A stretch of DNA of 64,000 nucleotides from Kordiimonas pumila (GTDB lineage Bacteria > Pseudomonadota > Alphaproteobacteria > Sphingomonadales > Kordiimonadaceae): the NCBI RefSeq assembly GCF_015240255.1, contig NZ_CP061205.1, positions 2,873,501 to 2,937,500 on the forward strand, in the 5' to 3' direction. Made by a program: the position numbers and the translations under genes. Position 1 is the stretch's first letter; the number at the start of each line of letters is the position of its first letter. This document shows, in pieces, positions 18,858 through 46,563 of this stretch. Below the pieces are notes generated by a model, which saw only the letters and a program-made list of their open reading frames with translations, was not told where the DNA came from and did not search any database.

Positions 18858-18892
18858 ATGTGCCCCTTCTTCGCCTGGGTTATATGCTTTTG

Positions 18893-20134: not shown

Positions 20135-20538
20135 CAAAAATCACCTTTAATAACAGCGGTCGCTTCTATTTCAATTTTTGCAGCGTCTTCTATCAGATCA
20201 GCTACTTGCACAACAGACATTGCCGGATAGTGCGCACCAAAAATCGACCGATAAATACGGCCAATTTCTTTAAGGTTTGCAAGATATTCGCTCTTATCAG
20301 TAATGAACCATGTAAGGCGCACCAAATCTTTTGGGGCAGCACCTGCTTCACTCAATAAAACTGCAATATTGTTTAAAGTCTGCTCAAACTGTTCGGCAAA
20401 GGTCTGGGCTTCAAAAACCTGATTTTCATTCCAGCCAATCTGCCCCCCCAGAAATATCATCGTGCCAGAAGCAACCATGCCATTTGAGTAACCAATGGGC
20501 TGCTTCCAACCATCAGGGAGCAAATGCATATGTGTCAT
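20134..20538 (-). CDS. RidA/YjgF-family protein
   Basis: 134-residue chorismate-mutase-like trimer subunit typical of Rid proteins: YSNGMVASGTMIFLGGQIGWNE near the N-terminus and a variable region in place of the canonical RNPxxCRA (the KIEIEATAVI end has no obvious Arg at that site). Rid enzymes hydrolyse reactive enamines or imines to ketones. In this operon it may deaminate the 2-amino (enamine) intermediate formed after ring reduction of 2-aminobenzoyl-CoA. That role is inference from context. It overlaps kynU by the TGATG junction. Confidence 0.8.
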   Translation of the reverse strand: MTHMHLLPDGWKQPIGYSNGMVASGTMIFLGGQIGWNENQVFEAQTFAEQFEQTLNNIAVLLSEAGAAPKDLVRLTWFITDKSEYLANLKEIGRIYRSIFGAHYPAMSVVQVADLIEDAAKIEIEATAVIKGDF

Positions 20539-20553
20539 TAACTTTTCCTATCT

Positions 20554-20970
20554 TTAACTATGTACAAGCTGATTTTCGAGGCCTGCGAGCAAATCCTTTG
20601 GCCACGGGCTTGTTTTCCCAAGTGCCGCTTTCGCATATACAATTATATGATTGGCCTTAAACCGCATCTCGCCCTTGCATGTGCACTCTATCTGCAACTC
20701 AATGCTGGATGTCCCTATTTTCACCAACTGAAGCTTAAGACACAGCATATCGCCAAGTCGGCTTGGGGTTTTGAAATCAATATCAATATGAACTGTTGGA
20801 ACAGCTTCACCCCTCACAAAGTGAATATCACCGAATGAAAAACCAACACATGTTTCAAACCATTCTTCAATGGTCGCATTAATTATTTCAAAGTAGCGCG
20901 GGTAGAAGGCAATCCCTGCCGGATCACAGTGCTGGAAACCAACCTTTTGCTCTCGTATAAAGGCTGTCAT
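20554..20970 (-). CDS. Acyl-CoA thioesterase (hotdog fold, 4-hydroxybenzoyl-CoA thioesterase-like)
   Basis: 138 residues with the Asp-containing HCDPAGIAFYPRYFEIINATIEEWF segment of the YbgC/4-HBA-CoA thioesterase branch. It starts in an ATGA overlap with the CoA ligase stop. In this operon it could rescue trapped CoA by hydrolysing aminobenzoyl-CoA or a dead-end ring intermediate. It acts in the cytosol. Confidence 0.82.
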   Translation of the reverse strand: MTAFIREQKVGFQHCDPAGIAFYPRYFEIINATIEEWFETCVGFSFGDIHFVRGEAVPTVHIDIDFKTPSRLGDMLCLKLQLVKIGTSSIELQIECTCKGEMRFKANHIIVYAKAALGKTSPWPKDLLAGLENQLVHS

Positions 20971-22592: not shown

Positions 22593-22605
22593 ATTCACCA
22601 CCCTT

Positions 22606-23751
22606 TCAATTTGCTATCACACTACGGGCAATAACAACTTTCTGAACATCAGATGCCCCTTCATAAATGCGCAAAGCACGAATTTCACGGTAAAGGGATT
22701 CAACAATTGTTCCCCGGCGTACACCGTCTCCTCCGTGTAATTGCACCGCTTGATCAATAACTCTTTGGCCTGCTTCTGTTGCATAAAGCTTCGCCATAGC
22801 GGCCTCACGCGTGATACGTACGGCGCCGCTATCTTTTTTCCATGCCGCCCGGTAAACCAGTAATGCTGCTGCGTCTATCTCAAGGGCCATATCAGCAATA
22901 TGCCCCTGCACCATTTGTAAATCTGCCATCGGGGCATCAAATATTTTACGGCTAGTCACTCGGCTAAGGCTTTCCTCAAGCGCGCGGCGTGCAAAACCAA
23001 GCGCCGCAGCACCAACACTTGCCCGAAAAACATCAAGAACTGACATCGCAATTTTAAAGCCCTGCCCCTCTTCACCTATTAGGGCAGATTTTGGCACTTT
23101 CACATGATTAAACCTAAGGTGTGCTAATGGATGCGGCGCAACCGCCTCTAGCCGTTCCACAACTTCAAGGCCGGGCGTATCTGCCATCACCATGAAAGCA
23201 GAAATACCTTTTGCCCCAGCAATATTTCCTGTCCGGGCAAAGACAGTATAATAATCAGCGATCCCACCGTTTGAAATCCAGGTTTTTTCACCGTTTAGAA
23301 CATAACAATCACCGCAGTCTTCCGCTGATGTTGCCAACCTCGCCGCATCAGAGCCTGTTTCCGGCTCAGTCAGAGCAAAAGCAGACACCAGCATTCCTGA
23401 TCGTGTTCCTTTAAGCAGCGTTTGCTGCTCTAGTGTTCCAAATAACGACAGAGCACCTGTCCCTAGCCCCTGCATTGCAAAAGCAAAGTCTGCTAACCCG
23501 TCATGACGCGCTAGCGTTTCCCGAATAATACACAAGCTTCGCACATCGATTGCATCACCCGTATCAGGATTTACTGATGTATAGTCTAGCCAGCCCGCCA
23601 ACCCGAGCAGGCTAACAAGCTCTCTACAGGCACGGTCAACATCACTATGATCGACAGGTAAATTAATCTGCGCCCATGCTTCTAGCTTAGCGGCCAGAGT
23701 TCGGTGTTTTTCTTCAAGAAATGGCCACTCAAGGAAAGTTGTATCAGCCAT
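22606..23751 (-). CDS. Acyl-CoA dehydrogenase of the 2-aminobenzoyl-CoA operon
   Basis: FAD acyl-CoA dehydrogenase of 381 residues. [15 protein letters not shown] and WISNGG are flavin/substrate motifs, [27 protein letters not shown] is helix G, and the catalytic Glu is in [10 protein letters not shown]. It would desaturate the alicyclic CoA ester produced after ring reduction, leading to beta-oxidation-like ring opening. The start at 23751 is two bases past the hydratase stop, with GAGGGAGA upstream. Confidence 0.87.
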
Positions 23752-23752
23752 G

Positions 23753-24556
23753 TCAATCTCCCTCAAAGACAGGTTTTTCTTTGGCTACAAAAGCCTTATA
23801 AGCACGCTCAAAGTCTTTTGTTTGCATACAAATCGCCTGTGCTTGCGCCTCTGCCTCAATCGCCTGATCAAGGGTCATGCACCATTCCTGATTCAACTGG
23901 GTTTTGGTCATCATGTTCGCAAAGCTAGGGCCGCTCGCTATACGCTCTGCCAAAGAAAGGGCTTCAGCTTCAAGCGTGGCGGCATCAATAATTCTGCTGA
24001 AAAACCCCCAGGTACAGCCCTCTTCTGCTGTCATGGTGCGGCCAGTATATAGAAGCTCTGCGGCTCTGCCTTGCCCAATAATTCTGGGTAAAATTGCGCA
24101 CGCACCCATATCGCAGCCAGCAAGGCCTACACGATTAAAAAGAAAAGCCGTTTTTGCACTATTAGCCGCTAGGCGTATATCAGACGCCATTGCTACAATG
24201 GCACCAGCACCAACAGCAATACCTTCTATGGCCGCAATAATAGGCTGCGGCGCATGGATCATGGCTTTTACCAGATCTCCTGTCATGCGGGTGAACTTTA
24301 AAAGTTTTGGCATGTCATAAGCAACGAGCGGCGCAATAATATCATGCACGTCACCGCCAGAGCAAAAGTTTCCTTCGTTACTTGCAAACACAAAAGCTTT
24401 TATTTCATCGTCATAGACAGCATCTCGAAACATGTCTCTGAGCTCAGCATAGCTTTCAAAGGTAAGCGGGTTTTTCCGGTCAGGATTATTCAACCTAACA
24501 ACAGCAACCTTGTTATGTATCTCGAGCAGAAAATGTTTTGGGTTACGGTTAATCAT
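23753..24556 (-). CDS. Enoyl-CoA hydratase/isomerase family protein
   Basis: Crotonase-fold protein of about 267 residues from the ATG at 24556, preceded by [22 protein letters not shown] and [19 protein letters not shown] form the oxyanion hole. The Glu expected after the second loop is replaced in [19 protein letters not shown], as in some alicyclic CoA hydratases or ring hydrolases. In the pathway it may hydrate or hydrolyse the cyclic CoA intermediate. The exact reaction is unproven. Confidence 0.85.
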
Positions 24557-24560
24557 AGTC

Positions 24561-25046
24561 TTACTCCCCCTTTTCATGCACGAGGCGGTCAAGCCTTGTA
24601 ATGATGCCCGCTGCATCATCATAATTTACAGCGCTGAACAATTCGTTCACTTTTGCTTCGTGAGCGGCAGCTTGTTTTTCAAATCTTTTTTTACCAGCAT
24701 TTGTAAGCTGCACACGGGTTGAACGGCGATCACCTTCAATAGCAGCCCTGATAACAAGTCCCTCTGTAACCAAGCGGTCTATAATCCCTGTGACATTACC
24801 GTTTGAGACCATTAAGGCCTGACTAAGCTCTGACATTTTAGCCCCCTTTTTCATTTTATAGAGAGCTGCCATCACATCAAAACGAGGTAAGGTTGTATCG
24901 TGTTCGGTGCGCAAAAATTCTCGAATTTCATTTTCAATGATTTTGTTAACCTGCAATAAGCGAAGCCACAGACGAAGCCGCTCCTTGGAGATGCTATGAA
25001 CATCCTGATCACTTACATGCTGCACCACCAGATCGGTATTATTCAT
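24561..25046 (-). CDS. MarR-family transcriptional regulator
   Basis: 161 residues. The winged helix ([54 protein letters not shown]) and [17 protein letters not shown] wing are typical. It is encoded inside the operon it probably controls, between SDR and hydratase genes, with an ATGA overlap to the SDR stop. MarR proteins of aromatic-CoA pathways often respond to the CoA thioester. The inverted repeat at 28154-28200 is the natural candidate operator. Confidence 0.88.
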
Positions 25047-25810
25047 GTTACTTCCCCTCCTGAAATAGATATTGCCTGCCCTGTAATTGATTTTGCTGCA
25101 TCACTGCATAACCACAGTGCTGTTGCAGCTACTTCTTCTGGCATAATAAAGCGCTTTTGTGGGTTAACACTGGCCAGAGTTTTGCGGGCTTTGTCTGGCG
25201 TATAGCCGGTTTGAGCTACAATATTTTCTATGGACCGCTCAAGAAGCGGTGTCTCGACAAAACCTGGGCATAGGGCATTTACTGTTATATTATGACCCGC
25301 CATTTCAGCGGCAAGGGCACGCGTAAGGCCAATGACCCCATGTTTGGCGGCACAGTAAGGCGCTACATAGGAATAGCCCTTAAGCCCTGCCGTCGATGCT
25401 ATGGAAAGCATCCTGCCCCAACCTTGGTCCAGCATATCTTTAAGGCCTGCCTGCATGGTCAGAAAAGTGCCCGTCAAATTAACGGCCAGCATGGCATCCC
25501 AGTGCTGCCTATCTATTTTTGAAAAAGGTGCACTTTCCGCCGCGCCTGCATTAGCAATAACAATGCTAACAGGGCCGTTCACAGTCCTTGCCTGCTCAAA
25601 CATATCTACAACAGATTCCTCTGATGTAATATCTGCAATAACAGGCGTAACCCTTTGTAATTTAGAGGATACGCCTTCCAAGACATTAGCTCTGCGCCCA
25701 GCAATAGTAACCTTTGCTCCGGCCAAAGACAGCACCTTAGCAAGCTCAGCACCCACGCCTGTACCACCTCCTGTTATCAGAACGTGTTTTCTCTCAACAG
25801 GTCCTTGCAT
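25043..25810 (-). CDS. Short-chain dehydrogenase of the 2-aminobenzoyl-CoA operon
   Basis: SDR of 255 residues. GGGTGVGAELAKVLSLAG is the cofactor loop, with ANAGAAESAPF near 88, STAGLKGYSYVAPYCAAKHGV carrying the Ser-Tyr-Lys set, and [12 protein letters not shown] at the end. A 3-hydroxyacyl-CoA-type oxidation in ring-fission beta-oxidation is the likely step. The ATG at 25810 overlaps the monooxygenase stop (TGATG). Confidence 0.87.
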   Translation of the reverse strand: MQGPVERKHVLITGGGTGVGAELAKVLSLAGAKVTIAGRRANVLEGVSSKLQRVTPVIADITSEESVVDMFEQARTVNGPVSIVIANAGAAESAPFSKIDRQHWDAMLAVNLTGTFLTMQAGLKDMLDQGWGRMLSIASTAGLKGYSYVAPYCAAKHGVIGLTRALAAEMAGHNITVNALCPGFVETPLLERSIENIVAQTGYTPDKARKTLASVNPQKRFIMPEEVAATALWLCSDAAKSITGQAISISGGEVT

Positions 25811-28098
25811 CAAACACGCTCCGCATTGTTGGCCTCTGCCCGTTCAGCAAGCCTATACAATTGATCACGGCCCGCATGATACGGCGCTGGCCAACAAACG
25901 TCCTTCTCACCGAGCGCAGCAGCTGAATGCAAAGTCCAGTACGGATCGGCAAGATGAGGCCGTGCAAGACACACAAGGTCCGCACGACCTGCCATCAAAA
26001 TAGAATTCACATGATCTGTTTCATAGATATTACCAACAGCCATCGTTTTGAGGCCGGTTTCGTTTCGTATCTGGTCAGAGAAAGGTGTCTGAAACATACG
26101 CCCATAAACAGGCTTTGCTTGCCTTGATGTCTGTCCTGCCGAAACATCAATAATGTCAACACCAGCCTCGCCCAGCATACGTGCAATAACGACTGCGTCA
26201 TTTGGCGTAATGCCTGCTTCACCAACCCAGTCATGCGCCGAAATCCGAACAGATATAGGCTTATTTTCAGGCCAAACTGCGCGAACAGCATGATAAAGCT
26301 CAAGCGGGAACCTCAAGCGATTTTCTACGCTGCCGCCGTACTCATCATTTCGTTTATTTGTTAACGGGCTTAAGAAAGACGATAATAGATAACCGTGTGC
26401 ATAATGCAATTCGAGCATATCAAAGCCCGCACGTTCTGCCATTTCAGCCGACTGAACAAAATCAGCAATAATTTTTTCCATATCAGCGCGCGTCATAACA
26501 CGCGGTGTTTGGCTGCTTTCAGACCAAGGAATAGCGGACGCTGATATCAAGCCCCAATTATCTGACGTTAAGGGCTGGTCCATGCCCTCCCAGCCAAGCC
26601 GTGTTGAACCCTTACGCCCAGCATGGCCAATTTGCACGGCTACCTTTGCTTCCGTTTCGCTGTGGATAAAATCTGTAATACGCCGCCATGCGGCTTCATG
26701 CTCCGGTGCATAAAGCCCCGGGCAACCGGGTGTAATGCGCGCCTCTGCTGATGTGCAGGTCATTTCCGTATAAACAAGGCCTGCGCCGCCCTTTGCTCGC
26801 TCGCCGTAATGTACCAAATGCCAGTCTGTAGGGCAGCCATCATGCGCTTTATACTGCGCCATCGGCGATACAACAATCCGGTTTCTCAACTCCATGCCGC
26901 GCAATTTGAATGGTGCAAACATGGGGGCTTTTGCGGCTTTACCACCTCCTGAATTTTGCTGAAACCATGTCTCTGCACTTTCCAACCAGCTTTTATCCCT
27001 TAACCGCAGGTTTTCGTGGCTAATACGCTGTGAACGGGTGAGCAACGAATAATTAAACTGTACTGGATCAAGCCCCAGATATCGTTCAACATTTTCAAAC
27101 CACTCAAGCGAATTACGAGCCGCAGATTGCAGTTTTAACACCTCTAACCGGCGCTCATCCTCGTACCGCACAAAAGCTTTCTCAAGTGTTGGCTCAGTGT
27201 GCACATACTCTGCCAGTGCAATAGCACTTTCCATAGCGAGTTTTGTACCGGACCCAATAGAGAAATGGGCAGTTGCAGCCGCATCCCCCATCAGCACAAT
27301 ATTGTCAGTAGACCATTTTTCGCATAGCACACGTGGGAAGCTAATCCATGCGGACCCTCTAATGTGGTTTGCGTTACTCATAAGACTATGACCACCTAAG
27401 TGGTTTGCAAAAATACGCTCACATATCTTGATGGACTCTTGCTGACTTAATGAACTAAAGCCATATGCATCCCACGTTTTCTGGCTGCATTCTACAATGA
27501 ATGTCGCGGTCTCATTATCAAACTGGTAGGCATGCGCCCACACCCAGCCATGCTCTGTTTTTTCAAAAATAAATGTAAAGGCATCATCAAATTTTTGCTT
27601 TGTGCCTAACCAGACAAATTTGCATTGCCGTACATCAATATCAGGCTTAAAAATACCAGCATGCTCAGTTCGCACTCTCGAGTTTAGCCCGTCTGCCGCA
27701 ACGATCAGGTCGTAGCCTTTCAAAGCTGTTGTAGAAGCGATGTCAGTTTGATACTCGATCTGCACCCCTAAAGATGTAGCCCTATCCTGCAATATGTTTA
27801 GCAGTTTCATACGGCCAATACCGCAAAACCCATGCCCTGTAGATACGGTGCGCACACCACCGTGTACAACAGCTATATCATCCCAATAAGCAAAGTTTTG
27901 CTCTATCTCAAACGAGCTTATACTATCGTTTCGAGCAAAGTTTACGAGTGTTTCTGCTGAAAACACCACACCCCAACCAAAAGTATCGTCTGGTCGGTTG
28001 CGTTCAAAAACGACGATCTCATGTTCCGGGTTCCGCAGCTTCATACTAATCGCGAAATAAAGCCCCGCAGGACCGCCCCCTAAACAAGCAATACGCAT
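25810..28098 (-). CDS. Bifunctional 2-aminobenzoyl-CoA monooxygenase/reductase (fusion flavoenzyme)
   Basis: About 762 residues in two domains. Residues 1 to about 375 are a salicylate-hydroxylase-like FAD monooxygenase ([15 protein letters not shown] at the start; [17 protein letters not shown] for FAD binding). Residues from about 395 on are an old-yellow-enzyme FMN reductase ([40 protein letters not shown] with the catalytic pair region; [11 protein letters not shown]). This architecture matches the ACMR enzyme that hydroxylates and then reduces 2-aminobenzoyl-CoA to a non-aromatic cyclohexene CoA ester. The ATG at 28098 follows GAGGGTGGTT. It is the first gene of the ten-gene operon. Confidence 0.93.
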
Positions 28099-28153
28099 AA
28101 CCACCCTCACATCCAAATATCAATGATTCTGTTAAACACCAGTATGAGGACGT

Positions 28154-33037: not shown

Positions 33038-34231
33038 TTAATCGCTTGGTAAAAGCTTTTCCGCCAGCTTGACCCAGTATAACGCGCCTAAAGGGATCAG
33101 TTCGTCGTTAAAATCATAGTTTGGATTATGCACCATGCAGGAATGTGGCCCTTCGCTACCATTACCCGCCCAAACATAACACCCCGGTGATTTTTGCAAC
33201 ATAAAGGCAAAGTCTTCCCCCGCCATTAAAGGCTCAGGTTCTTTATCAACTTTATCGGCGCCAAATACATCAATAAGCACATCTGTACAGATCGCAGTTT
33301 CATCCACACTATTCAATGTTGGTGGGTAGCCGACCCGATATTCAACCTTAGCTGTAGCACCGTAAGCTTTTGCAATATTCACAGCCAATGTTTCAAGCCG
33401 TTGCTGGATAAGTGCTTGATCATCTATGTTAAAATACCTCACTGTACCAGCAAGTGTCGCTGTTTCTGGGATGACATTGTATGTTTCTCCCGCCGCAATC
33501 CTCGTCACACTCACAACAGCAGAGTGCATCGGATTCATGTTTCTTGAAACAATTGTATTAATAGCGCCTACCAAGTCTGTTGCTATCACAATGGGGTCAA
33601 TAAACTTGTCCGGCATGGCTGCATGGCCGCCTTTTGCCTTTATCGTTATATCAAACCGATCATAACCCGCCATCATAGCGCCCGGCCTAACCGCAAATGA
33701 CCCAAGAGGAATACCCGGAATATTATGCATGCCAAAAACAGCTTTCACAGGGAATTTATCAAACAGACCCTCTTCCACCATCACCTTGCCGCCGCCTTCA
33801 TTTTCTTCAGCGGGCTGAAAAATAAAATACACCGTCCCGGAAAAGTTTTTACTTTTTGCTAAATACTCAGCGGCAGCCAATAACATTGTCGTATGGCCGT
33901 CATGGCCACAGCCATGCATTCGACCCTGGTGAACTGACTTGTGGTCAAAGCTGTTCATTTCATCAAGATGCAAAGCATCCATATCTGCGCGCAGACCGAT
34001 GGCATCATCGCCGTCACCCGCTTTTAAAATGCCAACAACACCAGTTGTCGCAAACCCGCGGTGCACTTCAATACCCCATGATTGAAGTTGTTCAGCGATA
34101 AGATCTGCCGTTTTAAATTCTTCAAATGCCGTCTCTGGGTGCCGGTGTATATCGTGCCGTATCTGCGTAAATTTCTTATGGGTTTCCTGCAAAGAGATCC
34201 ACGCTGTATCTGTCTGTTTTTCAATATGCAT
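33038..34231 (-). CDS. M20-family amidohydrolase (hippurate hydrolase / N-acyl amino acid amidase-like)
   Basis: 397-residue metallo-amidase. RHDIHRHPETAFEE near the start, the MHGCGHDGHTTMLL metal ligands near 105, EENEGGGKVMVEEG with catalytic Glu near 145, and LMAGEDFAFML near 365 are the M20D signature set. Members cleave N-acyl amino acids such as hippurate or indoleacetyl-amino acids. The start overlaps the stop of the transporter-VOC gene by one base (TAATG), so uptake and cleavage are co-translated. Cytoplasmic, as no signal peptide is seen. Confidence 0.92.
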   Translation of the reverse strand: MHIEKQTDTAWISLQETHKKFTQIRHDIHRHPETAFEEFKTADLIAEQLQSWGIEVHRGFATTGVVGILKAGDGDDAIGLRADMDALHLDEMNSFDHKSVHQGRMHGCGHDGHTTMLLAAAEYLAKSKNFSGTVYFIFQPAEENEGGGKVMVEEGLFDKFPVKAVFGMHNIPGIPLGSFAVRPGAMMAGYDRFDITIKAKGGHAAMPDKFIDPIVIATDLVGAINTIVSRNMNPMHSAVVSVTRIAAGETYNVIPETATLAGTVRYFNIDDQALIQQRLETLAVNIAKAYGATAKVEYRVGYPPTLNSVDETAICTDVLIDVFGADKVDKEPEPLMAGEDFAFMLQKSPGCYVWAGNGSEGPHSCMVHNPNYDFNDELIPLGALYWVKLAEKLLPSD

Positions 34232-36483
34232 TATACTTTCCCTATATCTTTATTACGCTCGAAACAAATGAAGAACCCATGACATAAATCAGCAGGTAAA
34301 ATGACCTTATCTATTTTTGTTTGTGTTTTTATCTTTTGGCTTTTCAAAAAAACCTTTGTCTGCTCAAGGTTCTCGACCGAAATATGAACCCCTGCAATAT
34401 ACGCATTTTTCACCGAATAACCTATATCAGCTATAACGGTATCCCCGTATTCCTCGCAAAACGCTTTTTTTGAGAAAACCTTTAAAGGCATTTCACTCGG
34501 GCCGCAGACAAAACAACCACTGTTAACTTTAGCAATTTCGCCGCCCCACAGTTCCTGAAGCTCCATAGCTGTTGTTTCAGGTTCATCGGAGATAGCGATT
34601 GTCTCTGTCCACGAAATCGCGCCATTCCTGTGGGTGCGCCACTGTGTGTTCAAGTAAAAATCCAGCGTGCGTATTTCTGACGTAGAAACATACAGGGGCG
34701 GCTCAAGATCCGGCATAATACAGTTACTAAAACCAACCGAATACATCTCTCCATCAGGGCCATCTTGGTCAAAGTCCATCTTGAGCAAATAAGGTGCAAA
34801 ACCACCTTGAGGATTTTCCTTATGCAATTTTTCAAAATGATTATACGTATTCTGGGCATCATCTGTACGCATAATCAAGGAGTGGGCACCCTCTTTTCCT
34901 ATCAAGCTACCCTTAAGCCATTTTTGCAAAAACGATGGGATCTCGCCTTGTGCACCGCCCAATTGCATAAATTCTATATAGTTTGCCAAGTTCTTCTGTT
35001 TTGGCGTCAGTAAAATGCGGGAATTGACAACACCTATACCCTCAAGAGGTGTAACCGGGCCTACTGTAAAGCCTAATGCTTTAAATGTTTCAGCCGTTAA
35101 ATTTATGTCTTTTACACCACACATAAGATGGTCAAATTCACGGATTGCCCTTGGCTGCAACACATCACTGCTTTTTTCTTTTCCAAGCCGCCAAATAGCC
35201 ACAGCACAAATAAGCGACGGCACAGTGAGCATCAGGAATACTTGTGTTGGAGGTAAACCAAGGCTCATAACAACACTGCCTGCTAGGGGGCCTACAATCG
35301 CTCCGATTCGGCCTGCTGACAGGCTGGCACCAACGCCTGCGCTCCTAATATTTGAGGGGTAAAAGTTAGCCGCTAGCGCATTCAATACTAGCTGTGGCCC
35401 CAAAATACCGACCCCTGCGAAAAACACCAAAACCAGAAGCACTGAAGCAGGCAAGCCTGACATGCTCATGACCGCTGTAATACATGCGGCAAATATATAG
35501 ACACAAAGCAAAACAATATACGGGGAAGAACGATCAGCAACACGGCCCAAAAACAAACTGGCAACGATGCCCCCTGCACTAAACAATGACATCGCAATGA
35601 TTGCTTTTTCGAGATTAAAGCCTGCCTCTGTCAAAATCGTGGGTAACCAGCTTATCATCAGATATAACATCAGCAGGTTAAGCGCAAAGAGCAGCCATAA
35701 AATGAGAGACCCTGCCAACCGGCCTTCAGAAAAAATATCTTTAAAACGTACGTGCCGTGCCTGACCAACAGCCACCTCAAATATTTCCTCTTCACGCGGT
35801 GTATAGGTGTTGTCTACACATGCGAGAAGTTTTGATGCTTCTTTTACCTTTGATGGTTTTGCCGCCAAAAACTTTATTGATTCTGGTAAAAAATAAAATA
35901 AAAGCACTGTCAGTAAAATTGGTAATACACCGCCTAAAATAAAGGAAGACCGCCAACCAAACTCACTAATCAGCGGGGCTGCGACTATACCCCCAAGAAC
36001 AGACCCCAACGGAAAGCCACAAGCCATTATTGTAACACTGAGCGCACGGTACCGCTTCGGAGAATATTCTGACACAAGCGCAATAGCACCAGGCATTGTG
36101 CCACCAATTCCAAGCCCCGTTAAAAAACGTAAAACCACCAGTTGGTCAATAGATGTGACATAGGCACTTAAGAGAGTGAACAAACCCACAAAACCAAAAC
36201 AGGTTATTGTCAGAATTCTTCTTCCATAGCGGTCCGCTGCAGGCCCCAAAAACAGCGCGCCCAGCATAAGGCCAAATAGGCTAGATGAAAATGCCAGCCC
36301 CAGGGAAGCACGCGATACAGACCATTCTGCCGCGATACCGGGGGCAGCAAACCCAATTACCTGTGTGTCGTAACCCTCTAGTAACGCTATGCAAACACAC
36401 AGAAAAACCACTTTTACCTGAAAGAAACCAAACGGCCTATCATCAATATATTTTTCAATATTTATGGGCGAAGAATTTGTCAT
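34231..36483 (-). CDS. MFS transporter (aromatic acid/H+ symporter-like) fused to VOC/glyoxalase-like domain
   Basis: About 750 residues in one uninterrupted frame. Residues about 15-430 form a 12-helix MFS carrier of the AAHS type (LLEGYDTQVIGFAAPGIAAEW; GPAADRYGRR loop; FLTGLGIGGTMPGAIALVSEY). Residues about 440-745 form a soluble part that opens FDHLMCGVKDINLTAETFKALGF and ends with AGVHISVENLEQTKVFL and ICFE, resembling two VOC (glyoxalase-like) modules with His/His/Glu candidate ligands. ATG at 36483 follows AGGA; the same site is kept in the duplicate fragment upstream. The fused domain probably faces the cytoplasm and may bind or process the imported compound. Confidence 0.85.
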   Translation of the reverse strand: MTNSSPINIEKYIDDRPFGFFQVKVVFLCVCIALLEGYDTQVIGFAAPGIAAEWSVSRASLGLAFSSSLFGLMLGALFLGPAADRYGRRILTITCFGFVGLFTLLSAYVTSIDQLVVLRFLTGLGIGGTMPGAIALVSEYSPKRYRALSVTIMACGFPLGSVLGGIVAAPLISEFGWRSSFILGGVLPILLTVLLFYFLPESIKFLAAKPSKVKEASKLLACVDNTYTPREEEIFEVAVGQARHVRFKDIFSEGRLAGSLILWLLFALNLLMLYLMISWLPTILTEAGFNLEKAIIAMSLFSAGGIVASLFLGRVADRSSPYIVLLCVYIFAACITAVMSMSGLPASVLLVLVFFAGVGILGPQLVLNALAANFYPSNIRSAGVGASLSAGRIGAIVGPLAGSVVMSLGLPPTQVFLMLTVPSLICAVAIWRLGKEKSSDVLQPRAIREFDHLMCGVKDINLTAETFKALGFTVGPVTPLEGIGVVNSRILLTPKQKNLANYIEFMQLGGAQGEIPSFLQKWLKGSLIGKEGAHSLIMRTDDAQNTYNHFEKLHKENPQGGFAPYLLKMDFDQDGPDGEMYSVGFSNCIMPDLEPPLYVSTSEIRTLDFYLNTQWRTHRNGAISWTETIAISDEPETTAMELQELWGGEIAKVNSGCFVCGPSEMPLKVFSKKAFCEEYGDTVIADIGYSVKNAYIAGVHISVENLEQTKVFLKSQKIKTQTKIDKVILPADLCHGFFICFERNKDIGKV

Positions 36484-36595: not shown

Positions 36596-36628
36596 GGAAA
36601 GCCCTGACGGGGCATGTCAGGGCTTTCC
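36596..36628. terminator. Strong 13-bp hairpin upstream of the transporter gene
   Basis: GGAAAGCCCTGAC pairs perfectly with GTCAGGGCTTTCC around a seven-base loop. It lies between the duplicated 5' fragment and the intact transporter gene on the minus strand. It may once have terminated an upstream transcript; no long T run follows. Confidence 0.55.
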
Positions 36629-36665
36629 ACCTGATATCCGTATGGGAGGAAACAGGCTTCAGTCA

Positions 36666-36839
36666 CTAGTATGTAAAACTCAGGCGTAAGCCAAATCTCT
36701 TGAGGCGACTGGTTATCTGATAACCGCACAGATAATGCATCACACCCCAAGCATAAGCATGATCACCACGCACCGACAAAAAACCAACCGGCCTATCGTC
36801 AATACATTTCTCAATATTTATGGTCGAAGAGTTTGTCAT
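36666..36839 (-). pseudogene. Duplicated 5' end of the MFS-VOC transporter gene (vestige)
   Basis: From ATG at 36839, MTNSSTINIEKCIDDRPVGF repeats the transporter N-terminus with few changes, including the AGGATGATTATG ribosome/start context. After about 22 residues the similarity collapses (SVRGDHAYAWGVMHYLCGYQ) and the frame ends at 36666. Only the first ~70 bases are clearly homologous. This is either a decayed tandem copy or a partial duplication that carried its leader. Confidence 0.75.
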
Positions 36840-36893
36840 AATCATCCTGATACTAAAATCCATTGCACTCAAAACATAATAATATCATATACA

Positions 36894-37049: not shown

Positions 37050-37721
37050 ATGAGACTATTTTTTGGAACAATGAACACTGCAGCCAGCATCATGCTTTCA
37101 GCAGTGGTTATACAGGGCAGTGCTTTTGCCCATGATCATGGGAACGATGCGTTAAAACTCTGCCCCACGACAGCCCAAAAAACCCGAATAATGCAAGAGG
37201 TTACAGACTACCCTGGCGATCCAATTACCATTGTAGCGCGTGACCTGAAGGTCCCTGAATTCACCGCAGTAAGCAGCTTACCAGCCAAAATGGCGGTAGG
37301 CGCATGGATTAATGGCGAGCAGGCGCAAGAGCTTTGGAAGTCAATCGATGCATGGGGAAAAGATACAATGGTACGTCTTCTTTTCACTCCCTCAAGCCAA
37401 CATGCATTTATTGTGCACGATAAAGTGCCCGTAACACAGCCAAACCCCGAAGAAGGGTATCTGGATGTTTATGCTGATGAGGGCAATGGTATCCATTCTC
37501 ATATCCAGCTCAACACTATTGCCTCTATATATGCAAGTGACCTACCGACAGACGACCCTAAATATCGCACACGGGGCATCAATTTTTATGATCAACAGGG
37601 TCATAGCGTTATTGGCGTTTATGCCTCAATTAAAACATATGAGCCCGACCCTGCGGCCATTGCCGGGTTTGAGCGCACTAAAGCTGAAATTGCCAAATTA
37701 TCAAATGACGTTTGCCCGTAA
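37050..37721 (+). CDS. Exported HutX/ChuX-like protein
   Basis: 223 residues with a signal peptide ending GSAFA-HDHG. The central region resembles the haem-carrier HutX/ChuX fold: a VGAWINGEQAQELWKSIDAWGKDTMVRLLF part, then EGYLDVYADEGNGIHSHIQLNTIASIYASD and a GINFYDQQGHSVIGVYAS strand pair. Known members are cytoplasmic; a secreted one is unusual and the resemblance is by pattern only. AAGGAAAGCTC precedes the start. It lies between the transporter and the TonB receptor, so a ligand-binding role in uptake is possible. Confidence 0.5.
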   Translation: MRLFFGTMNTAASIMLSAVVIQGSAFAHDHGNDALKLCPTTAQKTRIMQEVTDYPGDPITIVARDLKVPEFTAVSSLPAKMAVGAWINGEQAQELWKSIDAWGKDTMVRLLFTPSSQHAFIVHDKVPVTQPNPEEGYLDVYADEGNGIHSHIQLNTIASIYASDLPTDDPKYRTRGINFYDQQGHSVIGVYASIKTYEPDPAAIAGFERTKAEIAKLSNDVCP

Positions 37722-38076: not shown

Positions 38077-40143
38077 TTAAAACTTGCCTTTAAATCCTAT
38101 TCCAAAGGTACGAGGATCAAGTGGTGCCGCCACAATGCCGCCTGCTGCCCGATCGCTTTCTAGCGAAGTTGGGGAACGGTCATCAAATATATTGTTGGCA
38201 TAAACATACACTTCAAACACTTCATCCAGCACATAGCTCAGGTTGGCATTAGCAACAGTGTAACTGCTAACCTCGTAGTCTGGCAGGTTTTCTTCATCAG
38301 AGTAATAACCATCAGAGTGCCGTACCTTGGCTGTTAACGTCATCTTTGAGGTCAGGTCCCAGTCAAAACCAATATTGAAGTTATATTTGGGGGCGCGAAG
38401 GAAATCATTGCCCACATACACAGCACCGCCCGGAGTGGTAAACTCGCTAATTTTTGTTTCCATCAAACCCGCAGCCGCTTTTATGCTGAAGGTATCTGAA
38501 ACCAGCCATTTCATCTCAAGTTCAAGACCATAAGCTTCAGCACTGTCAGCATTAACCGCAACTGCGCCATATGGTATAGTGCCAATGAAGTCAGGTATTT
38601 GACGCTGAGAATCTGTATAGTCAGTATAGAAGATGTTACCGTTTATAGATAAACGATTATCCAACATACGGCCCCGGAAGAAGAGCTCATAGTTCCATGC
38701 GGTTTCTTGATCAAAATAGACGAAGTTGGCACCAGCGAAACTTAGGTTAACCCCACCTGGATTATAGCCTTTATTAACCAGAACACCGAATGTTAATTCA
38801 TCTGACACATCGTAGGCGATAGACGCTTTTGGAAGCCAGACATTAAAATCTTCGTCGTAATCTAGAGGAACAGTTGCAAATGATGCAGTTCCTGTACGCT
38901 CAACACTGTCGCTTTGATAACGAAGGCCACCTGTAAATGTTAGGCGGTCACTAAGGCCATAACTAACTTCTGTGAACACACCCAAGTGCTTCTTTTCATC
39001 TTCAAATGCTGAGGTGCCCCTGAGGGACAGAGTGTCATCAGAATCTGTTTTTTCCACAAACACACCAACAAAACCACTTAGGTCTGAACTATCACTATTA
39101 TAGTTCAGGCGTGTTTCATTTGAAAGATTAGTCTGATTTACCACAGCTGAACCATTTGTAGCAGGCTCAGCAGTGCGAACAATGTGCTGATCAGAATATC
39201 TGGACTGGTTAACCAGCGTTAAGCTCTCGCTAATGGCATACTCGATATCCAAAATGCCTGTATCGGTATTTTGCTTCCAGCTCGGGAGAGCGGGCGACAT
39301 GCTATTCAAATCTTCATATGGAGCACCTGCCATTTCCCACGTAGGCCGGTTGCCAGATGTGTGAGAATAGGTCAATTTTGCACTGAACCCTTCAATAGCA
39401 CTTGGTGTCCACAATAATTTAGTGCGCGCACTAAAAGATCTAAATTCATGGTCCGTATCACCCTGAACAAAAGCCGGGTTAATATAATCAATGAATGTAT
39501 CACGTTGCCAATAATCGATCGCAACGCGCGCTGCCAGTTCATCCGCAACGAGGGGGCCGGAAACAGCAAAAGCTCCCCGAATTTTATCGTAGCTCGCCAA
39601 TTCCGCCAGATAGGATGCTTCAGGCTCAAAAGTTGGATCATTGGTGTTCACAATGATCGCACCAGCAATAGAGTTAGCCCCTTGCGACGTTGTTTGCGGA
39701 CCACGAAACACTTCAATAGATTTCAGGTCCCACACTGATGTTCCGCCCAGAGAGTATTCGTAAAAATTCTGATAGTGACCATCAATATTGATAGAAGCAC
39801 GAGGCACTGTACCGCCAAAGAAAGCCGCGCCACCAAAGTTAGGCCCTTGGGTGTCTTGCCCGCGAATTGTAGGCGTACTCACTGATCCTGCATATACAAT
39901 ATTAGCAAGGTCTGCGATTGACTCAGCAACCGAAGAGCTTCCATTGTCTGTTGCTGTCAAAACCGTAACGGAACTAGCTGTATCCTTGAGCGATCTGGAA
40001 ACTTTTTCACCAGTAACAATTATTTCCTCTAGCTCGAAACCAACTCCATCAGATGTTTCTTGCGCAGAAGCAGAAACAGCCATGCACATTACGGCCATAC
40101 TTACAATTGATGTACGACCATATAAAGTTTTTCTGTATTTCAT
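38077..40143 (-). CDS. TonB-dependent outer-membrane receptor
   Basis: 688 residues: signal peptide ending SASAQ, a TonB box (EEIIVTGEK), a plug domain (SSVTVLTA to GGTSVWDLKSIEVFRGPQTTSQGANSIAGAIIVNTNDP), then a 22-strand barrel ending in the aromatic FGIGFKGKF. It imports a ligand across the outer membrane with TonB energy. It resembles the FyuA/catechol-siderophore-like and carbohydrate/aromatic receptors of sphingomonads. Its place among hydrolase genes favours an organic substrate over iron, though the HutX-like neighbour keeps haem possible. Confidence 0.92.
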   Translation of the reverse strand: MKYRKTLYGRTSIVSMAVMCMAVSASAQETSDGVGFELEEIIVTGEKVSRSLKDTASSVTVLTATDNGSSSVAESIADLANIVYAGSVSTPTIRGQDTQGPNFGGAAFFGGTVPRASINIDGHYQNFYEYSLGGTSVWDLKSIEVFRGPQTTSQGANSIAGAIIVNTNDPTFEPEASYLAELASYDKIRGAFAVSGPLVADELAARVAIDYWQRDTFIDYINPAFVQGDTDHEFRSFSARTKLLWTPSAIEGFSAKLTYSHTSGNRPTWEMAGAPYEDLNSMSPALPSWKQNTDTGILDIEYAISESLTLVNQSRYSDQHIVRTAEPATNGSAVVNQTNLSNETRLNYNSDSSDLSGFVGVFVEKTDSDDTLSLRGTSAFEDEKKHLGVFTEVSYGLSDRLTFTGGLRYQSDSVERTGTASFATVPLDYDEDFNVWLPKASIAYDVSDELTFGVLVNKGYNPGGVNLSFAGANFVYFDQETAWNYELFFRGRMLDNRLSINGNIFYTDYTDSQRQIPDFIGTIPYGAVAVNADSAEAYGLELEMKWLVSDTFSIKAAAGLMETKISEFTTPGGAVYVGNDFLRAPKYNFNIGFDWDLTSKMTLTAKVRHSDGYYSDEENLPDYEVSSYTVANANLSYVLDEVFEVYVYANNIFDDRSPTSLESDRAAGGIVAAPLDPRTFGIGFKGKF

Positions 40144-40832: not shown

Positions 40833-41645
40833 ATGAGCAGACGCGGCAAACCCTCACACTTGAACCCTGAAGAAAAACGCGGCATTCAGTCCATTGATGT
40901 TGGCATCGGTGTGTTAAATGCTGTAGCCTCTTTTCTAAGGCCTGCCTCCCTTAAGGAGTTAAGTGATGTTGCCGGAATGCCAGCCAGCAAGGTACACAGA
41001 TACCTAACAAGCTTTATCCGCACTGGTCTGATTGCCCAAGATCCCATTAGTGGCAGATATGACCTTGGCCCACAAGCCCTACAGCTTGGCCTTTCCGCAA
41101 TAGCAAGGCTGGACATAGTGGACATAGCAACACGTCACATGGCTGAACTCACTGCTGAATATGACATCATGTCACTTTTGAACATATGGGGCGATCAAGG
41201 CCCAACTGTTATTCGTATTAAAAGAAGTACCGAGAATATATTCTCCTCAATTGCCTTAGGCGCGGTTTTGCCGCCACTGAGATCTGCTACCGGGCTAGCA
41301 TTTCTGGCACACCTGCCTGAAGAGATGACTAAGATCCAAATCGATAAAGGCCTGAAGGAAGCCAAAAAGCTGGAAAACACAGGACCAAAAACAAAGCGCG
41401 AACTGGCTGACATTTTAAATAAAGTGCGCACACAGGGTTATTCTACTGGTTTCAGCCTTTCCGGCACAGCAAACCCCAGCATGAGCGCTATCGCAGTCCC
41501 ATTACTTGATATACAGGGGGAAGCTTCAGCCGTCATATGCCTTATGAGCGGCCTTACCGACCTAACCGACATGAATAACGGTATTGCGCACAAGCTAATT
41601 GAGGTCTGTAAAGAAGCGTCTCTCGTCACAAAAAGCAATGAATGA
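40833..41645 (+). CDS. IclR-family transcriptional regulator
   Basis: 270 residues: an N-terminal winged helix (IGVLNAVASFLRPASLKELSDVAGMPASKVHRYLTSFIRTGLI) and a GAF-like effector domain (LDIVDIATRHMAELTAEYDIMSLLNIWG; RTQGYSTGFSLSGTANPSMSAIAVPLLD). IclR proteins often control aromatic or acyl-compound catabolism. It stands in the middle of the uptake and hydrolysis cluster and is the only intact regulator gene there, so it is its probable controller. Confidence 0.9.
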   Translation: MSRRGKPSHLNPEEKRGIQSIDVGIGVLNAVASFLRPASLKELSDVAGMPASKVHRYLTSFIRTGLIAQDPISGRYDLGPQALQLGLSAIARLDIVDIATRHMAELTAEYDIMSLLNIWGDQGPTVIRIKRSTENIFSSIALGAVLPPLRSATGLAFLAHLPEEMTKIQIDKGLKEAKKLENTGPKTKRELADILNKVRTQGYSTGFSLSGTANPSMSAIAVPLLDIQGEASAVICLMSGLTDLTDMNNGIAHKLIEVCKEASLVTKSNE

Positions 41646-41818: not shown

Positions 41819-43831
41819 ATGAAAAAATACAATACATTATATATAGTTACCTGCATCTTGGCATTATGCTTAAACGGGTGTTCAGCACAGCAAGAACCTC
41901 CCCTCGTTGCAGACCTTATTCTAACTAATGGATATATTTACACAGCAAACGAAGCGCACACTGTTACAGAAGCAATTGCTATAAAAGGCAACAGCATCAT
42001 AGCCACAGGAACATCCGAAGACATAGCGCAGCATAAAGGACCCAACACCCTTGTTCGTGATCTAGAGGGTAAAATGGTAATGCCCGGACTGCACGACATG
42101 CACATTCACGCGCTTGGTTCTGTGCGGCCAGACATGTGTGATCTGGATGCATCTGTCTATTCACTGGCTGAGTTAGTACCAGTCATTCAGGAATGTATTC
42201 GCACCTATAATATACCTGACGGCGAATGGGTCCCGGTCCTGCAATGGAACCCCTTTGAAGGAAACCAGCCCAGTACCCAATATCCAACAATTCGAGCTGC
42301 CCTGGATGCCGCATCTAGCACACACCCAATTATCATGTGGGGTAATGATGGTCACCACGGGGCTGTAAACTCACTCGCATTGCAAAGCCCTGCCATACCC
42401 ATTAATGCTGAAACCCTTAAAACTACATACGCTGCCCACAAAAGCCTTATTGCAGTTGATGATAGAGGCGAACCCACAGGTGGCATGATGGAAGGGGCCC
42501 GCAACATCGTTCGGGCTGATATGGACAATGATATGCTCGGTGTTAGTTCACCCTCTTCCAGCTTAATGCCTAGGGTGGCAGCAAAAATGGCAGAAACTGG
42601 TATTACATCCATACAGGATGCTGCAGTGACCGAGGCCATCCTTGACCATTACCTGTGGCTTGCAGAAAATGGCGGGCTTACATTTCGGTTAAGAACAGCC
42701 CTTGTGGCACACCCGGATAGCAAAAACCCGGATAGCGACACAGCTGCAAAGACCGCGATTGATGAGCTGAAAAAACTTCGCCACAAAGCAGACGGCGCAA
42801 AGTATATTGACACCTCTGCCATGAAAATTTTCGCCGACGGCGTGCTTGAAGGAAACCCCCGCGCCGACCCGCCTTCATTGCCTAATGCCGCAATGATTGA
42901 CGGCTATGAACAGCCCCTTTTTAACCTTGACCCAGAAACAGGTGAGACAGACGTCATTGGATATGTCGACTTTCAAAGCCCACATTGCCAAGAGGTTCAA
43001 AGGAACCCTGATGTATTTAATACACTAAATGCCATTACCAACTTTAAACAAAAGCATGGGTATGCGCCGTCACGTTGCATCAAACAGTATGGCCATTTGG
43101 CACAACCAGAAACGGTTATTAAAGCTCTGGTACGTGAAGCAACAGAGGCCGGTTACCATGTGCATATTCACGCCATTGCAGATCGTGCTGTAAAAGTCTC
43201 TGCCGATGCTTTTGAAGCTGTAGCAGAGCAGGCAAAGAGCAAAGGGCTAACTCAAAGCATTGCACACCTGCAAATAGGGAAAAAAGAAGACGTCGAGCGC
43301 TTGTCTAAATTAGGCACCTTTGTGGCTTTCACTTATGTCTGGGCCAGCCCACTACCAGATTATGAAATGACGGTCATACCATTTATAGATAAGGTTTCTG
43401 GTAGAAATGACCTATATAACCCTGCCCATTCCTATATAAAAGAGGCATATCCCTTTAAAAGCGTGTTAGAAGCTGGTGGTATTCCGGTTTTTGGAAGTGA
43501 CGCACCAGTAGGTAGCCGCGATCCTATGCCGTTTGTCAGCATGGCCACCGCTGTAACTAGGGAAGCGGGCGGAATTGTCTTAAACGCTACAGAGCGACTG
43601 AACATCCATCAGGCGATCGCTTCTTATACGCGTAGTAGTGCCAAAATGATGGCACATGCAGACACTCTTGGAACTTTAGACGCAGGCATGCAAGCTGACC
43701 TGATTATACTTGACCGCAATATAGTACAGCTAGCTGAAAAGGGGCAGCCTGAAGCCATTGCCGGTACAAAAGTGCTTACTACTATATTTGATGGCCACAT
43801 TATATATGATGCCAATTCGGTAGATCAGTAA
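41819..43831 (+). CDS. Amidohydrolase lipoprotein (YtcJ-like, Amidohydro_3)
   Basis: 670 residues. The N-terminus MKKYNTLYIVTCILALCLNGC is a lipoprotein signal with Cys21. Metal-binding DMHIHALGS near 95, a likely carbamylated-Lys region MKIFADGVLEG near 340, VHIHAIADRAV near 450 and FGSDAPVGSRDPM near 560 fit the TIM-barrel amidohydrolase fold with N- and C-terminal beta modules. It would hydrolyse an amide or cyclic amide outside the cytoplasm. AAGGAATACAG precedes the start. It follows the IclR gene on the same strand. Confidence 0.9.
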   Translation: MKKYNTLYIVTCILALCLNGCSAQQEPPLVADLILTNGYIYTANEAHTVTEAIAIKGNSIIATGTSEDIAQHKGPNTLVRDLEGKMVMPGLHDMHIHALGSVRPDMCDLDASVYSLAELVPVIQECIRTYNIPDGEWVPVLQWNPFEGNQPSTQYPTIRAALDAASSTHPIIMWGNDGHHGAVNSLALQSPAIPINAETLKTTYAAHKSLIAVDDRGEPTGGMMEGARNIVRADMDNDMLGVSSPSSSLMPRVAAKMAETGITSIQDAAVTEAILDHYLWLAENGGLTFRLRTALVAHPDSKNPDSDTAAKTAIDELKKLRHKADGAKYIDTSAMKIFADGVLEGNPRADPPSLPNAAMIDGYEQPLFNLDPETGETDVIGYVDFQSPHCQEVQRNPDVFNTLNAITNFKQKHGYAPSRCIKQYGHLAQPETVIKALVREATEAGYHVHIHAIADRAVKVSADAFEAVAEQAKSKGLTQSIAHLQIGKKEDVERLSKLGTFVAFTYVWASPLPDYEMTVIPFIDKVSGRNDLYNPAHSYIKEAYPFKSVLEAGGIPVFGSDAPVGSRDPMPFVSMATAVTREAGGIVLNATERLNIHQAIASYTRSSAKMMAHADTLGTLDAGMQADLIILDRNIVQLAEKGQPEAIAGTKVLTTIFDGHIIYDANSVDQ

Positions 43832-43877
43832 GCTAGACTAGACCAAGCCAAGCTAATATAAGACCGTATCAACTACA

Positions 43878-43927
43878 GACCTGCAAGGCCACGTTAACCA
43901 CGGCCTTGCAGGTCGTTGTTTTTTTAA
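43878..43927 (+). terminator. Rho-independent terminator after the amidohydrolase gene
   Basis: GACCTGCAAGGCC pairs perfectly with GGCCTTGCAGGTC around an 11-base loop, followed by GTTGTTTTTTT. It separates the amidohydrolase from the acylase transcription unit. Confidence 0.92.
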
Positions 43928-44105
43928 TGCCATACTCAGGCTAATCTTAAAAATCTATACAAAAAAGGGCCGATAACCGCTCGGCCGTATAATAGCCTGA
44001 ATGGCTAATTTACCTTGACAGCTTATTTCTTCATAATATACAAATTATTCACCAATGGTAAAATATTTACACATAATAAAATAATTGATTAGCAAGGAGG
44101 CAGTA

Positions 44106-46448
44106 ATGGTTTCTCTAAGAAAAATAGCCATAAGTGCGTTAGTATCTTCCTCTTTAGTCGGGTGTGCCAATAGCGCCCCCACTGAAACGGGTGGCCGCTC
44201 AGTTGAAATAAAATGGACCGAATACGACAATCCTCATATTACAGCAGATAATTATGAAGACCTAGGTTTTGGTTATGGTTATGTGCTAGGGAAAGATCGG
44301 CTATGTGAAAATTCTGGCCGCGCACTGGCCCTCAGGGGTGAACGATCTCGTGTTTACGGACCAGACGGCTTCGCCACTGTTGGTTTTTTAAGGACCACAA
44401 ACCTCAATTCAGACTTAATCTACAGCATGCGATTACCTGAAGACCAGGTGCTGTCAGAACTTGAAAACCTGCAACCAAAAACAAAAGATCTCATTCGCGG
44501 CGTAACCCGGGGGTTGAATTATTATGTAGAGACTCTCTCTGAGGCTGAAAAAGAAGGCATATGCGGAGAAGAGCCTCTGGTTGAATTCAAGGAAACAGAT
44601 ATCGTTCGATCTGCAATGGCGTTTGGTGTCATGAAGGAACTAGTGGATATCGCTTCATCCTTTATAACATCTGCTTCCGCATGGAAAACAACCAAAACTT
44701 CAGAAGTTTTTCACCCCAATCACTCTGCGCCAGTTGTTGTAGAGAGCGGCTTTGGCAGTAATGGTTGGGCTTATGGTGGCAATGTTGTTGGCAGCGATGG
44801 TGCCATGATGTTTGCAAATCCACACTCAGCTTGGGAGCGCCGCCCGCATCAGCAGCGGATATACATGCATCAAGTTCATCTTACCATACCGGGTGAAATT
44901 GATTTTGCAGGGTCCTCTTTTCTTGGTGTTCCGGCCCCAATGACAGGCTTTAACAAAGATGTTGCCTGGACGATTTTGGATGCAGCTACCGTAACACCAT
45001 ATGTCTTGCAATTGATGGATGTGGAAGAGTCTGATGACAACCCAACATACCTGATGGACGGCACAAGAAAACCGCTTGAGATCCGAACAGTATCAAGAGA
45101 GGTTCTTGAGAAAAACGGCAAAGTCGTTACAAAATCTTTTGATTTTGCTTTTTCCGAACTGGGTATGGCTTATAAATTACCAAACGGGCCGGGAAGACCG
45201 GCTGGTTGGTATGCCATAACGAATGCCAATGAAGGAAACGCAAGTGGTATTGACCAGTTTCTTGAAGCAGCCCGCGCTAAAAATGCCGACGAATTTGTTG
45301 ATGCTGTCGCGGATAATCGTGGAATTCTTTCGCAGTTACTTTTTGCGGATAGGTACGGAGATGCAGGGTATGTAGTAGCAGGCAATGTGCCCGCCATTAC
45401 CAACGAAAAGATTGAAGAGTGCCATGTAGGGGGTAGTTCCGCAGCCTACAAAATACTGGATGGTACACAGTCCAAATGTACATTCCGCGATAGTGACGGC
45501 AAAGCACTTGCCGCACCCCGGTCTTTTTATCCCGACATAATCACACGGGGCATTATCCAAAATACTAATAACAGTTACAAATATACCGAATACGGAAAGG
45601 CTCAGGAGGCTCATTCCATTCTTTTTGGGCGCCATTTGAACAAACTTAGCCCGGGGGATAAAAAAGCAGCTGGTCTTCGCTATGACCCAAGGCTAATTAT
45701 GTCGTCAATCCGTATGAAAGAAATCAGTGCAGACGGCGTTGTTACCCCAGAAGAAGCTCTGGATGTTATTTTTGATAACCGGAACTTTGCAGCCGAAACT
45801 TTCCTCGATGAAATACTGGCTCTTTGCGCAAATTCTACGGAAGAAGATGTTGCAACAGCCTGTGATGTACTGAGTAAGTGGGACAGAAAAAACAACTCAG
45901 ACAGCAAAGGCGCGCTTCTGCACTACGTGTTCTGGACCAAAGCTGTTCAGATCAACTCTATCCTGTCCACCAGTGTTTCAGGTGACCCTTATGCAGGTTC
46001 GCAGATTCATATTAACGAGACAACAGCACCGCAATTAGTGGCAGCATTAGCTACCTCTGTACGTGAACTTAGAGACTTGGGCTTTAGTGCCGATGAACCT
46101 TGGGGCAATGCCTTGTATGCGACAGGAAACGGCGAACGCATCCCTTTGCATGGCGGGTCATATCAAGAAGGTTTGCTGAACGGCGAAATGCCAGCCCCTT
46201 TAACCAAAGATGGGTTCCCTTTCATTCTGTTCGGCACAGTGTACCTGGAGCGGGTGCAATGGGAAAATGGCGAGGTCATTGCAGATGTACTTCTGAGTCA
46301 TGGCCAGTCTGAAAATAAAGATTCAGAGGGTCGCACAGCACAGCTGAAGCTATTCTCTGAAAAGAAACTATACAGATTACCCTTTACAGAGCAGCAACTT
46401 GCCGATGCTGAGATTGTAAAATCAGTAACCCTTAACCCCGGAAAATAA
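44106..46448 (+). CDS. Penicillin-acylase-family amidase, lipoprotein
   Basis: 780 residues from the ATG at 44106, which has AGGAGG eight bases upstream; an earlier ATG at 44085 lacks one. The signal peptide ends SLVGC-A, a lipobox. The Ntn-hydrolase signature is present: after a spacer comes GFGSNGWAYGG with the autocatalytic Ser at the new N-terminus of the beta chain, then FANPHSAWERRPHQQRIYMHQVHL. The alpha region starts EIKWTEYDNPHITADNYEDLGFGYGYV. Members cleave acyl amides such as penicillins and acyl-homoserine lactones. In context an extracytoplasmic amide-cleaving step is inferred. Confidence 0.9.
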   Translation: MVSLRKIAISALVSSSLVGCANSAPTETGGRSVEIKWTEYDNPHITADNYEDLGFGYGYVLGKDRLCENSGRALALRGERSRVYGPDGFATVGFLRTTNLNSDLIYSMRLPEDQVLSELENLQPKTKDLIRGVTRGLNYYVETLSEAEKEGICGEEPLVEFKETDIVRSAMAFGVMKELVDIASSFITSASAWKTTKTSEVFHPNHSAPVVVESGFGSNGWAYGGNVVGSDGAMMFANPHSAWERRPHQQRIYMHQVHLTIPGEIDFAGSSFLGVPAPMTGFNKDVAWTILDAATVTPYVLQLMDVEESDDNPTYLMDGTRKPLEIRTVSREVLEKNGKVVTKSFDFAFSELGMAYKLPNGPGRPAGWYAITNANEGNASGIDQFLEAARAKNADEFVDAVADNRGILSQLLFADRYGDAGYVVAGNVPAITNEKIEECHVGGSSAAYKILDGTQSKCTFRDSDGKALAAPRSFYPDIITRGIIQNTNNSYKYTEYGKAQEAHSILFGRHLNKLSPGDKKAAGLRYDPRLIMSSIRMKEISADGVVTPEEALDVIFDNRNFAAETFLDEILALCANSTEEDVATACDVLSKWDRKNNSDSKGALLHYVFWTKAVQINSILSTSVSGDPYAGSQIHINETTAPQLVAALATSVRELRDLGFSADEPWGNALYATGNGERIPLHGGSYQEGLLNGEMPAPLTKDGFPFILFGTVYLERVQWENGEVIADVLLSHGQSENKDSEGRTAQLKLFSEKKLYRLPFTEQQLADAEIVKSVTLNPGK

Positions 46449-46563
46449 GCTATTCGCCGCTGAAGGAAGTAAAAGCATATGTACGTTTGGATAATTTCGA
46501 AAATTGCTGACATTTTTCATTCAGTCCAAATGCTTTTACCATAAAATTATATAGGAGAATGTA

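Follow-up and report, generated by a model that had tools for sequence, protein, structure and literature searches.

A rare in-frame fusion of an aromatic-acid-type MFS carrier and a Glyoxalase_3 VOC domain in Kordiimonas pumila

The Kordiimonas pumila window analysed here (the whole 64,000-nt stretch of contig NZ_CP061205.1, numbered from its first letter) contains a single gene that joins a complete MFS carrier to a Glyoxalase_3-type VOC domain. The gene runs on the minus strand from an ATG at 36483 to a TAA at 34233–34231, comprising 750 codons with no internal stops, and alternative starts are possible slightly upstream (TTG 36501, ATG 36489). The fusion is real: the frame, the profile matches and a hydropathy count together bear out the proposal of an earlier note, made from the letters of the DNA, of one 750-residue frame holding a full 12-helix carrier and a C-terminal part of about 300 residues. 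The coupling of the gene to an M20 hydrolase, proposed in the same note, is borne out by a one-base overlap between the fusion stop and the M20 start (TAATG). We propose that the product is an importer that brings its own first cytosolic step, in which the VOC domain would act on an aromatic-type acid, or the amide of one, as it enters, and give this reading close to an even chance of being right. The positions of the relevant features are collected in Table 1.

Table 1. Features of the fused gene and its surroundings in the window.
Feature	Position	Strand	Remark
M20 amidohydrolase	33038..34231	-	PF01546 E 2e-46; TIGR01891 369.9 bits, cut-off 153.75
VOC / Glyoxalase_3 domain, residues 440-750	34234..35166	-	311 residues; four predicted VOC modules
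Codons H618-R619-N620	34624..34632	-	linker before module 3; H and N invariant 31/31
Codon E504	34972..34974	-	module 1 last strand; candidate ligand; invariant 31/31
Codon H452	35128..35130	-	module 1 first strand; candidate ligand; invariant 31/31
TGATG at the exact join	35163..35167	-	not in the fused frame; resembles an overlapping stop and start
MFS carrier domain, residues 1-439	35167..36483	-	PF07690 E 7e-58; TIGR00895; hydropathy topology
E36-G37-Y38-D39	36367..36378	-	helix-1 DGXD motif with Glu as first Asp
Perfect inverted repeat, 33 bases, 13-base arms	36596..36628		between carrier remnant and gene start
Decayed second copy of carrier start	36778..36848	-	71 bases, 89% identical
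TonB-dependent receptor	38077..40143	-	best genome paralogue in locus B
IclR regulator	40833..41645	+	best paralogue beside the free VOC gene (locus B), second best in gentisate locus C

Membership of the carrier in the MFS is clear (MFS_1, PF07690; 196.6 bits, cut-off 33.4, E 7e-58). The best-scoring NCBIfam model over residues 9–405 is TIGR00895, at 378.2 bits, which falls below the curated cut-off of 418.55 and leaves the domain outside the AAHS family by that measure; a gentisate-linked carrier homologue from Tistrella also scores under it (401.7 bits). The label of aromatic-acid-type MFS carrier given in the earlier note is supported, with a score under the curated AAHS cut-off. Hydropathy counting gave 12 hydrophobic segments, and the loop charges suggest that both ends of the carrier lie inside, so the VOC part that follows its C-terminus is predicted to be cytosolic. 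Like the AAHS carriers GenK, PcaK and BenK (TIGR00895), the domain has 12 helices, DR pairs in its loops (2-3 and 8-9) and a DGXD-like motif in helix 1; unlike them, it scores below the cut-off and has E36 in place of the first Asp. The helix-1 motif reads EGYD at residues 36–39 rather than a strict DGXD, a conservative change; in GenK, the corresponding Asp-to-Glu substitution is reported to keep about half of transport and Ala to abolish it (PMC3392265).

Four plasmid-borne relatives of the carrier were inspected (40–45% identity), and all four lie among aromatic-ring genes, with gentisate 1,2-dioxygenase nearby in Tistrella and Sphingomonas and Rieske ring-hydroxylating oxygenase genes nearby in Pseudomonas and Paraburkholderia; the Paraburkholderia relative (45%) is closer than that of Tistrella (40%). 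Within ~6 kb of the homologues in Sphingomonas, Pseudomonas and Paraburkholderia, no VOC gene is annotated. The gene company of these relatives supports, though it does not prove, an aromatic acid as the cargo of the carrier. At an E-value of 1e-60, the carrier half was detected in one of 19 genomes of the genus. To our knowledge, known AAHS members have no VOC tail.

The C-terminal part, which the earlier note had read as VOC-like, is placed in Glyoxalase_3 by a profile search (PF13468, residues 450–645; 48.9 bits, cut-off 25.1, E 1.1e-12), and structure prediction agrees. Our literature search found no Glyoxalase_3 member of known reaction; Amm15 is named without a function in PMC12424672. 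While the full-length protein model was too poor for use (pLDDT 60.9), the VOC part alone was predicted with good confidence, and by our reading its model shows four beta-alpha-beta-beta-beta modules rather than the two first suggested. The pairing of modules that marks the VOC superfamily is seen in the secondary structure of the model and in its PDB matches, the nearest folds being a Staphylococcus aureus protein (3p8a) and 4-hydroxyphenylpyruvate dioxygenase (HPPD).

Seven alignment columns are invariant in all 31 aligned relatives, H452, E504, H618 and N620 among them, and the fused domain retains all seven residues. H452 and E504 occupy what we take to be the usual module-1 metal-ligand positions of VOC enzymes, and the domain probably binds a metal through these two residues and perhaps H618. 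A His/His/Glu ligand set had been suggested with no residues named; three invariant residues of these kinds do exist (H452, E504 and H618), but the third lies in a linker. Elsewhere in the domain, H534 (the usual module-2 His) is present in five of the 31, and a His at the end of module 2 that 21 of them carry is an Ile in the fused domain. As with other Glyoxalase_3 (PF13468) proteins, the profile score exceeds the cut-off and the invariant DH, E and HxN are shared, whereas here the domain is fused to a carrier. Identity to HPPD and hydroxymandelate synthase is 6–11% among the matches listed. The metal in these two enzymes sits in the C-terminal module pair, whereas the invariant residues of the fused VOC domain sit in module 1 and the linker. 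H700 and E742, candidates for part of a C-terminal 2-His-1-Glu site like that of the HPPD-like Fe(II) dioxygenases, are present in the fused domain and rare among the 31 relatives; as family ligands they were rejected, with a His at 700 in four of 31 and a Glu at 742 in three of 31 (fused protein included).

These residues also bear on whether the tail is an enzyme at all. It could instead be a non-catalytic binding or regulatory domain, which would bind the imported compound or its product and tune transport in the manner of a sensor tail. Some proteins with a VOC fold do nothing but bind, this family does not conserve the usual ligands of module 2, and its members lie near many carrier types, all of which would fit such a role. 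An invariance of H452, E504, H618 and N620 in every one of the 31 relatives is, however, more than we would expect for mere binding, and the same genome holds a free VOC paralogue without an attached carrier; on balance, we find a purely binding tail unlikely, though still a live rival.

At the join itself, carrier homology ends at residue 435 and homology to the free VOC paralogue begins at residue 445. The TGATG word at the exact join places its TGA in one other frame and its ATG in the third, and is possibly a trace of two former genes; as the word occurs seven times across the 2253-base gene, this evidence is weak. The same word could be read as the mark of a sequencing error that has fused two genes truly overlapping by stop and start, since it sits precisely at the join and no orthologue confirms the fusion. 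We regard such an error as highly improbable, given that the genome is a single contig of 100% completeness, that TGATG is frequent in the gene, and that matches of the fused frame to carrier relatives run to residue 435 and those to VOC relatives start at 445, such that the sequence would have to be wrong at two separate bases within ~10 codons.

The fusion is rare, and we do not claim that it is unique. Relatives of the VOC domain were found in one of 246 genomes of the order (E 1e-6; the source genome alone), 34 of 385 of the class (E 1e-5), 58 of 398 of the phylum (E 1e-10) and seven of 369 of another class (E 1e-10). No fused copy was seen outside the source genome in these four samples, which overlap one another; in the 398- and 369-genome samples, at most the best six candidates were scored per genome and weak relatives may be missed, and some matches in the latter are short (85 and 160 codons) and unable to reveal a fusion. 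Among plasmids, none of 996 matching records covers 80% of the fused protein. A first scan of genome contigs gave no match, and a second, using two short peptide patterns, gave nine loci, none of them fused. Three long frames over VOC matches (G705, 777 codons; G852, 764; G931, 604) were rejected, since on reading they proved to be frames left open by chance over other genes in DNA rich in GC. In a further frame of 518 codons (G405), the VOC match starts at residue 236, and on Tistrella mobilis pTM1 the cognate gene has an ordinary VOC annotation.

Conservation of the fusion among orthologues, a survey of which the earlier note had called for, was not found: no orthologous fusion came to light, which makes the fusion either young or very rare. 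The accompanying view that it belongs to no standard family agrees with the lack of a second example in the samples searched. With no second fused copy, there is no sign of selection keeping the join. Among the open-access papers listed in our literature searches, none has a title or abstract that mentions an MFS–VOC fusion or pairing. MFS–enzyme fusions are already known in kind. LplT–Aas resembles the present protein in combining an MFS transporter with a cytosolic enzyme acting on its cargo, the two being apparently fused in some bacteria (PMC11416262). It differs in that a lysophospholipid transporter is paired with an acyltransferase, an enzyme domain unrelated to VOC. Solute-transport genes are also described as frequent among the fused genes of E. 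coli (PMC4921024).

The surrounding area is functionally coherent and freshly rearranged, with related genes at two other places in the same genome. Locus B (C1:1.505–1.512 Mb) comprises a TonB receptor, the free VOC paralogue and an IclR gene directly beside the latter, the TonB paralogue lying two open frames from the free VOC gene. The free and fused VOC sequences match at 58% over 301 residues, with 75% identity at second codon positions and 40% at third; dS is saturated and dN/dS inestimable. Locus C (C1:151–160 kb) contains a gentisate operon, whose gentisate dioxygenase scores 580.7 bits (cut-off 442.1). The operon ends in a 1480-base, 100% identical copy (C1:151241–152720) of the last 91 codons of the fusion and of the M20 gene in full, and a carrier remnant of 43 residues is joined to this copy. 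The copy is a very recent duplication, and it probably travelled from the window to locus C, as locus C holds only the VOC tail.

Such scars keep alive the possibility that the fusion is incidental, that is, a recent joining of a neighbouring carrier and VOC gene in a rearranging locus, with a product no better than its parts or already decaying. The 71-base remnant of the carrier start, the carrier remnant with the exact VOC-tail/M20 copy at C1:151–153 kb, the presence of the fusion in one genome only among those searched, and the out-of-frame TGATG, which may mark two formerly overlapping genes, are all in keeping with this. Against it, no stop interrupts the 2253 bases of the frame, neither domain is truncated and the seven invariant residues are kept. 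We consider an incidental origin improbable overall; it stays a live rival because conservation of the join was not seen.

Several further observations concern the window around the gene. A stretch at 18060–28116 encodes three proteins that exceed their NCBIfam cut-offs, namely a tryptophan 2,3-dioxygenase, a kynureninase and, at 1288 bits against 1078, one of the bifunctional salicylyl-CoA 5-hydroxylase/oxidoreductase type; a benzoate-CoA ligase-like gene falls just under its own (355.9 vs 375.25). Judged by these profile matches, it is an aromatic catabolic island. Downstream of the IclR gene, at 41819–48273, genes of the Amidohydro_3, penicillin-acylase and tannase families stand in a row. 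A protein of the ChuX/HutX-like haem-utilisation family (E 2.3e-12) is encoded at 37050–37721, divergent from the fusion gene. Window positions 36598–36659 match C1:3329433–3329495 at 84%.

Separate VOC, carrier and M20 genes in other bacteria offer a view of how the parts may be related. For this comparison, 16 plasmid neighbourhoods of VOC relatives were hand-picked, seven from 13 records (H16–H18, pTM1, H60, H66 and H68) and nine others chosen from 40 of 128 matching plasmid records; one was dropped for lack of annotation, leaving 15. The control comprised 129 non-carrier genes in four 40-kb stretches from four of the same plasmids, and carriers were labelled by eye on both sides. In this small, hand-picked and Rhodobacterales-rich sample, an uptake carrier lies within two genes of the VOC relative in 10 of 15 neighbourhoods, as it does for 29 of the 129 genes in the control (one-sided Fisher test, p 0.0008). 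Among the rest, Sulfitobacter has an uptake carrier three genes away, ABC genes stand at a distance of four genes in each of the two Pantoea, and none was seen near the VOC gene in Paracoccus and Thermomicrobium (two of the 15). An iron exporter in Pantoea dispersa and a siderophore receptor in P. agglomerans, both within two genes of VOC, were excluded from the tally of uptake carriers, as were Na+/H+ antiporter subunits in Thermomicrobium. Three further loci, partly scanned, also have carrier genes near VOC. As the carriers near VOC relatives are very different in kind (TRAP, TTT, ABC, BCCT), no single substrate class follows.

A parallel in gene content is T. mobilis pTM1, where separate genes for a carrier homologue (40%), an IclR protein, an M20 enzyme (50% identity to that of the window) and a VOC protein lie within about 25 kb, inside one 30-kb stretch. 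There, the carrier gene directly adjoins gentisate dioxygenase, and the VOC gene overlaps a TRAP carrier gene. Two further genomes, presumed from a shared genus label to be Tistrella, carry a gene of each of these kinds within ~18–24 kb, and in Pantoea agglomerans an M20 hydrolase gene (39%) immediately precedes the VOC gene. A broader form of the importer reading would make Glyoxalase_3 VOC proteins a general import-linked enzyme family serving TRAP, TTT, ABC and MFS carriers, of which the fusion would be the permanently docked form, its carrier passing an aromatic acid or amide to a metal enzyme at the inner mouth; we hold this generalisation to be rather unlikely.

Returning to the preferred reading of an importer with a built-in first step, the TonB receptor and the MFS carrier would together bring in an aromatic-type acid or amide, and the carrier, presumably proton-coupled by analogy with its family, would move the organic acid over the inner membrane. 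The cargo is probably an aromatic acid or an N-acyl amino-acid conjugate of one. The cytosolic VOC domain, probably a metal enzyme, would then take the emerging cargo and may isomerise, epimerise or oxidise it, with the co-translated M20 enzyme hydrolysing the amide, perhaps in that order, and the products may feed the gentisate route. The earlier suggestion that the imported compound would be bound, isomerised or cleaved at entry gains indirect support from the frequent occurrence of VOC relatives near uptake carriers as separate genes.

Where gene order alone would give only a suggestion, the fusion names the partners, and it links the Glyoxalase_3 VOC family, for which we found no member of known reaction, to uptake and M20 amide hydrolysis. 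Substrate, reaction and transport–enzyme coupling are jointly testable on this single protein, and even if the join is incidental, it clearly captures genes fusing and decaying within a region of aromatic catabolism.

Lastly, on P. agglomerans p1 (L095:1716-5828), we noted a run of genes for a luciferase-like monooxygenase, an alkylhydroperoxidase-domain protein, an M20 hydrolase and a VOC protein following an ABC carrier, and this run adjoins the siderophore receptor gene.
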